11,417 nt of DNA from the NCBI GenBank assembly GCA_012719335.1, contig JAAYAO010000006.1, positions 1-11,417 of the forward strand, read 5' to 3'. This DNA comes from Propionibacterium sp. GTDB taxonomy: Bacteria; Actinomycetota; Actinomycetes; Propionibacteriales; Propionibacteriaceae. The position numbers and the translations under genes were made by a program. Below, piece after piece: positions 7,359 through 11,417 of this stretch; position 1 is the stretch's first letter; each line of letters begins with the position of its first letter. Under the pieces are notes generated by a model. That model was given only the letters and a program-made list of their open reading frames with translations, was not told the origin of the DNA and made no database searches.

Positions 7359-7790
7359 TCAGAACTTACGGGTGGGCATCGACCAACGAGGCACCTGGGC
7401 GGCGGCCTTCCAGTCCACCGTCGACCAGGACCGTTCCTGGGCTTCCTTCATCAGGGCCAGGTCGGGGCTGACGACGACCGGGTGCCCGACCGCGCTCAAC
7501 ATCGGCAGGTCGACGTGGCTGTCGGCGTAGGCGTAACTGTTCGCCAGGTCGATGTCGTGCAGGGCCGCGTAATGCTTCAGCCAGGCCGAACGAGATTCCC
7601 CGACCATCGGGGGGCCGGTCAGGAAGCCGGTGGCGATGCCGTGCTCGTCGGTGATCAGGTCGGCGGCGATCACCACGTCGAACAGCGGCGCGATGGGCCG
7701 GGTCAACGGCCGGATCGCCCCGGTCAGCAGGATCGTGCGGTGCCCCGCGGCGCGGTGTTCCTTGATCCGGCGGATCGCCTCGGCCGACAC
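7359..7790 (-). CDS. C-terminal half of HAD-IB phosphatase domain, cut from FAR-HAD by an amber codon
   Basis: This segment is in the same reading frame as the upstream reductase gene and is separated from it only by TAG at 7818-7820. It carries the remaining HAD motifs of a SerB-like HAD-IB hydrolase: motif II ILLTGA (catalytic T671 in full-length numbering) and motif III YADSHVDLPML (736-746, D738 and D742). It ends SMPTRKF. Motif I, with the nucleophile, is on the other side of the stop, so alone this piece cannot be an active phosphatase. The first in-frame start codon is GTG 7790, with only GGAA nearby, so separate translation is doubtful. It could be the dead tail of a nonsense-mutated gene, a read-through extension, or part of an intact 791-residue protein if TAG is a sequence error. 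Confidence 0.7.
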   Translation of the reverse strand: MSAEAIRRIKEHRAAGHRTILLTGAIRPLTRPIAPLFDVVIAADLITDEHGIATGFLTGPPMVGESRSAWLKHYAALHDIDLANSYAYADSHVDLPMLSAVGHPVVVSPDLALMKEAQERSWSTVDWKAAAQVPRWSMPTRKF

Positions 7791-7817
7791 CCGTTCCAGG
7801 ATGTGGTTGGTCAGCTC

Positions 7818-9734
7818 CTAGTCCACGGCCCGTTCCAGCTCCGCGACGTCGGCGCCGGCGTAGCGTCGGTAGAAGGCGCGCAGGAAGGTGCCCCGGTCGC
7901 GCCGCTCGGCGTGCAGGTAGCCCGGCAGGCTGCTCAGGATGCTGCCGACCTCGCCCAGTCGGCCCAGCAGGCCGCGCTCGGACAGTCTGGTCCACAGGTA
8001 GGTTTCGATCACGTTGGTGGCCAGCACGGTGCCGTCCAGGTCGAAGGCGGCCAACACCTTCGACTGGTCACCGCTGAGGGTGCTCAGGTCGCGGAAGGTA
8101 CTGGCCTTGGTGCCGCGGCGACGCCGGGCCCGGTCGAGGCGCCGCACCGGTTCGGTGACCGCCGGGCAGTGCACCTCCACCAGGTAGGTGTGCCAGTCGT
8201 AGACCGCGGAGTCGAAGGCGAAGGCGTCCACATCGTCGGGGTGCAGTTCGTGGTGCAACCGCAGCGTGTTGTCGTCGACGAAGTGCAGCTCCGACTGGCC
8301 GTACTCGTTGTACAGATCCAGGTAGCGGCGCAGGAAGGCCAACTGTTTGGCCTGTTTGGCCAACTGGGTGCCGGTGCGGCGGACCGCCGCCGAGCGCGGC
8401 GCGAAGGTCAACGCCCGGGCGGCCACCGCGGTGGCCTTCTCGGAGGTGGCCAGCAGCCGTTCCACCGCCGCGGCGCCGGGGAAGTCCCATTCGTGGGCGA
8501 TCGGGGTGCCCCGGCCATCGGTTTCGAAGGGGTTGTCGATGAAGTACTGCCGCACCAGCTCGTACAGGGTGCGGAAGGTGATCGGGTTCCGGGCGCCGGA
8601 GTTCAGGTGGTAGAACTGCGGGTCGCCGACCTCGGGTTCGGTGGCGCACACCGCGACGATCGCGTTCACCACGTGGTCGACCGGCACGATGTCGATCACC
8701 GAGTCGGGGGATGCCGGAAACTCCGGCAGCCTGCCCTTGCCGTAGGCCATGATCAGCGGCTCGGCCATCTTGTAGCCCTCGATCCACCCCGGGTAGGGGT
8801 GTTTCCAGGCGGATTCGACGATCGCCGGGCGCACCACCGACAGCCGCACATCGCGGCCCACGTCGGTGACCACCCGCTCGCCGAGGGCCTTGGTGAAGGT
8901 GTAGACGTCGGTCCAGCCCAGTGACCGGGCGCGTTCGGTGCCGGCCTTGACCAGTTGTTCGGAGACCCATTCCTTGCGGCGACGTTCGGTGTCGACCGAG
9001 GTGGTCAGGTAGCCGGCGCGGCGATGGTCGCGTTCGGCGGCCTTGCGGAACTTGGTCAGCCGGGCCGGGGTGCGCGACTCGAGTTCGATGGCGGCCCCCA
9101 GGGCCAGGCCGTGTTCGGTCTCCACCCGGTAGTCGATGTCGTGCTCGTGCGGGGCCTCCCGGATCGCGCCGCGGCGCCGTCCGGCGGTGTAGGCGGTCGA
9201 GACGTGCAGGTAGTGCGGAATCCTGACCAGATTGCCGTCGGTGTCGCTGCAGGCTTCCAGCATCGCCCGGATCAGCGCTTCGGTGCCGATCGTGTTGGTG
9301 CGGAAGGCCTGGTCGATGGGTGGGTCGAAGGACACGTCACCGGCGCAGTGCACGACCACGTCCAGGTCGGCGGGCAGGGCGGGGACGTTGGGCAGGTCAC
9401 CCTCGATCACCTCGATGCGTTCGTCGACGAGGGCCTCGGGTGAACCCGCGGCGGCCACCAGGTCGGCGAAGATCTTCTTGCGCACCAGTTTGACCACCCG
9501 GGAGCGGGCGTCGGCCGAGCCCTTGCGGCGCACCAGCACCGCGGCGGTGGTCTCGGGCAGTTCGGTGAGGATCTTCCACAGCAGGTGTTCACCGATGAAC
9601 CCGGTGACGCCGGTCATCACGATCTTCTTGCCGGCCAGCAGGTCCTTCAGTCGCCCGTCCAGGGTGGGACGGGTGTCGTTGCCGGCGGAGGATCCGGCCT
9701 GGAAGGCGTGCGCCGGGGCGCTCGTGTTGGTCAC
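7818..9734 (-). CDS. Fatty acyl-CoA reductase (SDR) fused to the start of a HAD-IB hydrolase, ended by in-frame TAG
   Basis: The 638-residue product begins with a Male_sterility/NAD_binding_4-type reductase that converts fatty acyl-CoA to aldehyde or alcohol. It has the nucleotide-binding [12 protein letters not shown] (41-52), [10 protein letters not shown] (128-137), catalytic S179 in [10 protein letters not shown], and YTFTK (Y278, K282). The C-terminal sterile-type domain runs to about 545. A HAD domain then begins with motif [13 protein letters not shown] (563-574; D565, D567). TAG at 7818 stops translation after AELERAVD, before HAD motifs II and III. In frame it would continue to 7359, giving 791 residues, close to what is expected for actinobacterial SDR-HAD fusions. 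The GTG start shares GTGA with the hisA stop, and GAGGA lies just upstream. Reductase activity should survive; phosphatase activity should not without read-through. Confidence 0.88.
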
Positions 9735-10465
9735 CGATCCTCGCCCCGGGCCACGGCCAGCGCGTCGGGCAGGGTGAAGTTGCCGACGTACAAGGCGGTT
9801 CCGATGATGGCGCCCTCGACCCCGATCGGCACCAGGCCGCGCAACTGGCGCAGGTCCTCCAGCGAGGAGATACCGCCGGAGGCGACCACGGCCGCATTGG
9901 TGCGGGCACAGATCGCGCCGAGCAGTTCGAAGTTGGGGCCGGTCAGCATGCCGTCGGAGGCGACGTCGGTGACCACGAAGCGGGTGCAGCCGGCTTCGGA
10001 GAGGCGGGCCAGGGTGTCGAAGACGTCGCCGCCCTCACTGGTCCAGCCGCGGGCGGCCAGTTGGCTGCCCTTCACGTCCAGGCCGATCGCGATCCGGTCG
10101 CCGTGGGTGGCGATGATCTTCTCGCACCAGGCCGGGTTCTCCAGGGCGGCGGTGCCGATGTTCACCCGGGTGCAGCCGGTGCTCAATGCGCGGGCCAGGG
10201 ATTCGTCGTCGCGGATGCCGCCGGAGAGTTCGACCTTGATGTCCACCGCGGCGATGATTCCGGCGACCGCCTCGGCGTTGGAGCCACGCCCGAAGGCGGC
10301 GTCCAGGTCCACCAGGTGGATCCACTCGGCTCCCTCATCGGCCCAGCGACGTGCCGCGGCGATCGGATCCCCGAAAGTCTTCTCGGTACCGTCCACGCCC
10401 TGCACGAGCTGAACGGCTTGGCCGTCCTTGACATCGACGGCCGGCAACAGTTCCAGATGGCTCAC
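9731..10465 (-). CDS. hisA: Phosphoribosyl isomerase HisA/PriA
   Basis: HisA isomerises ProFAR to PRFAR in histidine synthesis; in many actinobacteria the same enzyme (PriA) also does the TrpF step of tryptophan synthesis. The 244-residue TIM barrel starts LELLPAVDV with D11 as general acid/base. It shows [14 protein letters not shown] (50-63), [12 protein letters not shown] (79-90), IGLDV with D130, ARGW (R139, W141) and SDG (D171). R139 and W141 correspond to PriA residues involved in dual specificity. Position 19, Arg in characterised PriA proteins, is Gln here ([10 protein letters not shown]), so TrpF activity is uncertain. The start is GTG 10465, fitting the family N-terminus, although the Shine-Dalgarno is weak. 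It lies 9 nt after hisH and overlaps the reductase gene by 4 nt. Confidence 0.96.
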
Positions 10466-10474
10466 CCGAGGAGC

Positions 10475-11113
10475 CTATCGCGGATCGAGCGAGCACACCC
10501 ACCGGCGGAGCAGCCGACCACCGGTCGCGCCCGACTTCTCGGGGTGGAATTGCATCGAGGCGAGCGGCCCGTGTTCGACCGCGGCGACCACCCGGTGCCC
10601 CTGGTGTTCGGTGAGGGTGACCTTCGCCCCGATCGTCCGCAGCGGGGCCGGGTCGAGCACCGCATAGCTGTGTACGAAGTAGTAGTACTCCCCCGGCTCG
10701 GGGCACAGCAGGCTGCCCGGGTCGGGTTCGGCGGTGTTCCAGCCCATGTGCGGCAGTCGTGGTGCCGGCACCCGGGCCACGGTGCCCGGCAGCAGACCCA
10801 GCCCGCGGGTACGGCGGCCGTGCTCGACGCCCTCCTCGAACAGCACCTGGTGTCCGACACAGATGCCCAGGGTGGGCCGGGAGGCGGCGACCCGTTCGGC
10901 CAGGATCTCCGGGGCACCGACCGCGGTCAGGCCGGCCATGCAGGACGCGAAGGCACCGACCCCGGGCACCACCAGACCGGCTGCGGTGCGGGCGCGTTCG
11001 GGGTCGGCGGTCAGTTCGACCCGGGCGCCGGCCGCGATCAGGGCACGGGTGGCCGAGTGCAGGTTGCCCGAACCGTAGTCGAGCACCACCACGTCCGATG
11101 CGGACGAGGTCAC
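10475..11113 (-). CDS. hisH: Imidazole glycerol phosphate synthase, glutaminase subunit HisH
   Basis: HisH hydrolyses glutamine and channels ammonia to HisF to make IGP and AICAR. The 212-residue class I amidotransferase starts [13 protein letters not shown] (8-20). It has the nucleophile elbow GICVGHQ (C85), PHMGWN (121-126), YYFVHSY (144-150), and the catalytic pair H190/E192 in FHPEKS. GTG 11113 is chosen because it overlaps the hisB stop in GTGA, has AAAGG 6 nt upstream, and gives the normal length. The longer in-frame extension to 11362 is antisense-like, low in family similarity and runs through hisB. The HisF partner is not in the window; the gene after hisA is a reductase instead. The stop is TAG. 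Confidence 0.96.
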
Positions 11114-11298
11114 AGCAGGCCTTTGGTACTGGGCACCCCGCTCACCCGGGGGTCGATCGCGACGGCGTCGCGCAGCGCCCGGGCCAGGGCCTTGAACTGG
11201 GCCTCGACGATGTGGTGCGGGTCCCGCCCGGCGAGCAGTCGCAGGTGGACGCAGATGTGGGCGTGGAAGGCGAAGGATTCGACCACGTGCCGGGTCAG
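11110..11298 (-). CDS. hisB: Imidazoleglycerol-phosphate dehydratase HisB, C-terminal fragment truncated at an inverted junction
   Basis: The last 62 residues are typical His[20 protein letters not shown], then the metal-binding [14 protein letters not shown] and the conserved ending [12 protein letters not shown]. HisB is normally about 200 residues, so roughly 138 are absent. The frame stays open to the window edge, but upstream of about 11298 it no longer looks like HisB in any frame; the expected SGRP region should fall near 11370 and is missing. From 11291 outward the plus strand instead encodes the end of HisC. The stop overlaps the hisH GTG start by 4 nt, as in an intact operon. The break is therefore at the 5' side only. 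Confidence 0.85.
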
Positions 11299-11299
11299 C
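11290..11299. other. Inverted chimeric junction between hisB (-) and hisC (+)
   Basis: HisB-type coding on the minus strand and HisC-type coding on the plus strand meet here. They share CGGGTCAG (11291-11298), which reads R-V-S in HisC and, as its complement CTGACCCG, L-T-R in HisB. An 8-nt inverted microhomology at a head-to-head join is typical of amplification fold-back chimeras. A real microhomology-mediated inversion would look the same. Confidence 0.6.
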
Positions 11300-11410
11300 G
11301 CCGGCACCCCCGACGAAATGGCCGCCTTCCGCACCGCGATGCAGAATGTGTTGAGCTCCCATCCCGAGCTGATCGACCGATCGGCCACGACCCCGAAGGA
11401 CACCCGATGA
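11291..11410 (+). CDS. hisC: Histidinol-phosphate aminotransferase HisC, C-terminal fragment on the opposite strand
   Basis: Forty codons on the plus strand read [20 protein letters not shown] and continue to a TGA at 11408-11410. RV(S/T)xGTPxE...F is the conserved C-terminal motif of HisC (PLP-dependent class II aminotransferase), whose Arg contacts the substrate phosphate. Codon choice is strongly GC3-biased, as expected for real coding, whereas the opposing hisB frame here uses atypical codons such as ACA, ATT and GGA. The stop overlaps a following ATG, the usual hisC-hisB coupling. Everything upstream of R is replaced by reversed hisB sequence, so this is a truncated piece at a fold-back junction. 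Identification rests on a short motif plus context. Confidence 0.65.
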
Positions 11411-11417
11411 CCCGCAC
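11407..11417 (+). CDS. hisB: Probable 5' start of hisB on the plus strand (first codons only, runs off right edge)
   Basis: ATGACCCGCAC overlaps the HisC-like TGA by 4 nt (ATGA) and would encode MTR followed by an incomplete codon. Several actinobacterial HisB proteins begin MTRTARIERTT-like, and hisB normally follows hisC. If correct, both ends of the same gene appear in this window in opposite orientation, with the middle missing. Confidence 0.4.

Follow-up and report, generated by a model that had tools for sequence, protein, structure and literature searches.

We regard it as highly probable that the last 127 bases of the window (the whole 11,417-nucleotide stretch of DNA analysed here) are an inverted piece of the histidine operon that became attached through a chimeric DNA molecule and was truncated at a fork in the assembly graph, and that they represent an artefact rather than a biological feature. 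The window is the entire contig C210 of a 2.83-Mb draft genome in 536 contigs, with the join at its end. The join itself was confirmed as inverted and head to head, with hisB on the minus strand against hisC on the plus strand. Comparison of the window with relatives showed that the stretch in between is skipped: the joined partners lie 482-569 nt apart in relatives, well within 10 kb, and are adjacent in the window.

Identity of the sequences at the join

Homology to HisB on the minus strand ended at LTRHV, whose L codon occupies positions 11296-11298. The piece, running from LTRHV to KGLL, is the C-terminal part of HisB; it shared 83% identity with HisB from the closest relative identified, and 18 distinct sequences of solved IGPD structures were matched in their C-terminal part. 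On the plus strand, the last 39 residues of HisC were read from 11291, followed by TGA at 11408-11410, and an ATG at 11407-11409 overlapped this stop as ATGA. A previous sequence-only reading of the window had placed the end of HisB homology at LTRHV (11298) and had read the plus strand from 11291 as the end of HisC up to TGA with an overlapping start; both readings, and their coordinates, were borne out. The ATG at 11407 is presumed from its position to be the start of hisB, of which 11 nt are present. In one relative (L009) hisB begins with an ATG located 2 nt downstream of the hisC stop. The features are listed in Table 1.

Table 1. Histidine biosynthesis genes and junction features at the end of the window
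Feature	Position	Strand	Evidence
hisA, bifunctional PriA type (HisA/TrpF), complete, downstream neighbour	9731..10465	-	NCBIfam TIGR01919, 345 bits (cut-off 306), profile 3-243 of 243
hisH, complete, GTG start to TAG stop	10475..11113	-	NCBIfam TIGR01855, 174.7 bits (cut-off 105)
hisB 3' part, interrupted at LTRHV (final 62 codons plus TGA)	11110..11298	-	NCBIfam HisB, E 8.4e-29, profile 137-199 of 199
Inverted microhomology, hisB (reversed)/hisC	11291..11300	.	Sequence and relatives' codons; 8 nt as read (11291-11298), 10 nt with the commonest codons
hisC 3' end, 39 codons and TGA, inverted	11291..11410	+	Profile matches and position in relatives
Presumed hisB, first 11 nt, ATG overlapping hisC stop	11407..11417	+	Position only; compare relative L009
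127-nt tail, probably a single assembly k-mer from the normal hisC-hisB sequence	11291..11417	+	127-nt overlaps of two contig pairs; base before the tail in relatives

As the plus-strand piece is short, its HisC profile scores were weak: the PRK03317 HisC model was matched at E 0.03 (positions 347-371 of 374), and PRK09105, a related aminotransferase model, at E 0.003 at the profile end. The tail was assigned to HisC because in all 42 informative related loci it matched sequence immediately upstream of hisB, in the same orientation, and on this strong positional evidence we read it as the very C-terminus of HisC. The sequence-only reading had made the fold-back depend on whether the plus-strand fragment aligns with HisC, and it aligned with the HisC C-terminus.

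In a large protein collection, the window's HisB and HisC fragments were present in none of the best 120 of 7999 and of 8000 scored proteins, and an intact enzyme from this species was thus not seen among them. By HisH, the nearest named relatives were Propionibacteriaceae (Micropruina and others), at no more than 65% identity among the matches listed; many of the other 80 HisH matches listed were from Nocardia or Rhodococcus. The top-ranked HisB protein (P0005; 317 residues, on a 1130-nt contig) carries its C-terminal part twice and is possibly another chimeric record.

Orientation of hisC and hisB in related loci

The normal actinobacterial gene order is hisC-hisB-hisH-hisA. Of 109 related loci, 42 had matches to both the hisC tail and hisB; of the 57 genomes matched in one search, the window's own included, 30 contributed loci. 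In all 42 the two lay on the same strand, 482-569 nt apart, and none were opposed, in agreement with the one-directional gene order that had been claimed earlier for his operons. The remaining 67 loci, many of them from Nocardia or Rhodococcus, gave no count, 2 lacking a hisB hit and 65 a hisC-tail hit at E < 0.05. At least one genome is probably represented twice among the 109 loci (L023 and L095, whose contigs are equally long); neither was counted. As no exact 200-mer was common to any two of the 42 informative loci (tested at 50-nt steps), these loci are not copies of one another.

The window thus joins, head to head, two sites that share a strand in relatives and are separated there by approximately half a kilobase. 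Its hisB end, hisH and hisA follow the usual order on one strand, as in the normal run. In contrast to that run, the hisC end and the presumed hisB start are in the opposite orientation, and approximately 146 N-terminal HisB residues are absent from the contig by comparison with the closest relative identified, whose HisB has 208 residues.

Tail length and contig overlaps

Fixed-length overlaps between neighbouring contigs are a trace of a de Bruijn assembler. We sampled 140 of the 536 contigs. Sequence could be read in 91 of these; the remaining 49, all of 2982 nt or less, were N throughout. Among the 91 readable contigs and the window, exact contig-end overlaps of at least 14 nt were present in three pairs. 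Two of these overlaps (C229/C18 and C71/C211) were exactly 127 nt long, so the final k of the assembly was probably 127. The third (C49/C55; end of L188, start of L194) was 44 nt, unlike the other two, and runs counter to a fixed overlap.

The stretch beyond the join, 11291-11417, is likewise 127 nt long. Among the 42 informative relatives, 26 were examined for the base preceding the first (arginine) codon of the tail; it was G in 25 and T in one, whereas the window has C at 11290. The normal sequence therefore very probably matches the tail from 11291 and not earlier. By this comparison with relatives, the agreement between the normal hisC-hisB sequence and the tail would be 127 nt, or one k-mer; this length presupposes a native base other than C ahead of the tail, as a CTC leucine codon there would make it 128 nt. 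An earlier remark that the tail is as long as an assembly k-mer has thus gained support from the two other contig pairs that overlap by exactly 127 nt, set beside the third pair at 44.

A contig that ends one k-mer past a join probably ran into a fork, at which the same 127-mer is also reached from the normal hisC. That the contig stops one k-mer past the join, as it would at a fork, suggests that the normal hisC-hisB sequence is present in the same data.

Shared bases at the junction

As read, hisB reversed and hisC forward have CGGGTCAG in common; the 8-nt inverted microhomology described previously was correct as read from both protein frames (11291-11298). With native hisB codons TCG CTG before the threonine and arginine codons, the shared stretch would be CGGGTCAGCG, or 10 nt. 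In hand counts, CTG occupied the hisB codon in 16 of 26 relatives, TCG preceded it in 21 and both were present in 14, while ATG or TTG replaced CTG in 9 of 26, which would give a 7-nt microhomology. The true length, set by the native hisB codons, is perhaps 7-10 nt.

When 200,000 inverted joins within 1 kb were simulated in this window, shared stretches of at least 6, 8 and 10 nt arose at frequencies of 3.8e-3, 4.2e-4 and 5e-5. In 1-kb stretches of three relatives, 8-nt inverted arms at least 300 nt apart numbered 8, 26 and 13, and 10-nt arms at that spacing 0, 4 and 0. With 8-nt inverted arms so frequent in DNA of this kind, a free 3' end readily meets a suitable site.

Search for an intact hisC-hisB junction

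Searches of the draft genome with the tail sequence and with models of HisB, HisC and HisD revealed no normal hisC-hisB junction, a result that is weak as 49 of the 140 sampled contigs were N throughout. Nor was hisD found in the draft genome by model search, some short contigs being N throughout. The short N-reading contigs may be the reason that the normal hisC-hisB path was not seen. The other end of the contig had no strong match elsewhere in the draft genome.

Candidates for a second copy or a partner were rejected. At E 0.001 or better, the lone other match to the tail was 28 nt long (C147:17661-17688); it spans the region around a different gene's start, and no adjacent his gene was recognised. 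When the threshold was relaxed to E 10, the rest of the 40 matches listed were short and chance-like. A HisC-like gene on contig C474 scored 260.8, below the hisC cut-off of 276.55, and has a different C-terminus.

Formation of the join

The chimeric molecule would have formed during amplification or library preparation, when two points of the hisC-hisB-hisH-hisA run were joined in opposite orientation. A 3' end within hisB, ending at approximately CGGGTCAG, would anneal to its complement near the hisC end on a nearby strand, and its extension would copy the hisC end and the hisB start. Where this chimeric path met the normal hisC-hisB path a fork would arise, and the contig would be ended there with a single 127-mer past the join. 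The remainder of hisB, together with hisC, would then be carried by a contig left out of the bin or by an N-reading contig shorter than 3 kb, and the living cell most likely has an intact his operon.

According to a study of multiple displacement amplification (PMC1855051), more than 85% of chimeras are inverted with intervening deletions, more than 70% of amplification chimeras are primed at 2-21 complementary nt, 337 of 475 are inverted and less than 10 kb apart, and formation within one branched molecule is favoured. Like the inverted chimeras that this study attributes to re-priming by a displaced 3' end, the join in the window is inverted, skips a stretch and connects partners well under 10 kb apart, and the 8 nt (7-10) complementary at the junction fall within the 2-21 nt range. 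The join thus resembles such a chimera in anatomy, and this library may have been amplified in that way. Chimeric reads may also arise by other routes, as reported for formalin-fixed samples (PMC8458033) and nanopore ligation libraries (PMC13141652).

Everything read near the join, as far as the contig extends, would be explained equally well by a real inversion in place, in some or all cells, of approximately half a kilobase between CGGGTCAG in hisC and its inverted copy in hisB, which would disrupt both genes. Short inverted arms are indeed read at both sites, and the failure to find a normal hisC-hisB copy in the draft genome is also in keeping with it. However, if the inversion were fixed the assembler would have no cause to end the contig one k-mer beyond the join, and the 127-nt tail points instead to a fork with a second path. 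Such an inversion would also leave hisB and the hisC end damaged beside complete hisH and hisA, and it was present in none of the 42 informative related loci. We therefore consider a real inversion of any kind very unlikely. That low estimate includes a population in which both orientations are mixed, which would yield the same assembly graph. It would be more surprising still if the inversion were reversible, acting between the short inverted repeats in hisC and hisB and turning histidine synthesis off in part of the population; no dedicated recombinase near the join was recognised by eye in the list of open reading frames of the window.

A misjoin made purely by the assembler, with no chimeric read behind it, would fit the position of the join at a contig end and the fragmented state of the draft genome. 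However, the approximately 8-10 shared nucleotides are too few for a de Bruijn assembler to make the join unaided, the usual smallest k being 21, and the bases across the join should derive from reads. As so short a repeat is insufficient for the assembler, the join most likely existed in a read or DNA molecule, and we give a pure misjoin hardly any credence. The earlier explanation, a chimeric read or misassembly near a contig end, was supported by the alignments, the gene order and the 127-nt overlaps, and is here narrowed to a chimeric read or molecule.

Annotation and other contig features

For curation, the contig end should be trimmed at approximately 11290, and annotation of this region as a hisB pseudogene or as an inversion should be avoided. 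A tail as long as the contig overlaps of the assembly, together with a diverging base just before the tail, could serve as a reusable diagnostic for chimeric contig ends.

Among the 91 readable contigs, C43 (L182) was considered as another fold-back end and rejected, since by eye its copies are similar but diverged over a longer stretch, as in a dispersed repeat; the 127-nt distance there was taken as coincidence. In this locus (G000:C43), positions 1-300 set against 2260-2360 show an inverted, diverged copy near the contig start, probably a dispersed repeat, with an exact 26-nt core that begins 127 nt from the end. Other shared stretches close to contig ends measured 24-67 nt. Approximately three exact tandem copies of a 33-nt unit stand at the start of another contig (L146, G000:C10, positions 1-100).

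Elsewhere in the window, a fatty acyl-CoA reductase-like protein (Male sterility, Pfam PF07993) with a subsequent HAD domain is encoded on the minus strand at 7359-9734 and is interrupted by one in-frame TAG at 7818-7820. The HAD domain (PF12710) was matched on both sides of this TAG in the same frame, and the codon is either a nonsense change or a base error.
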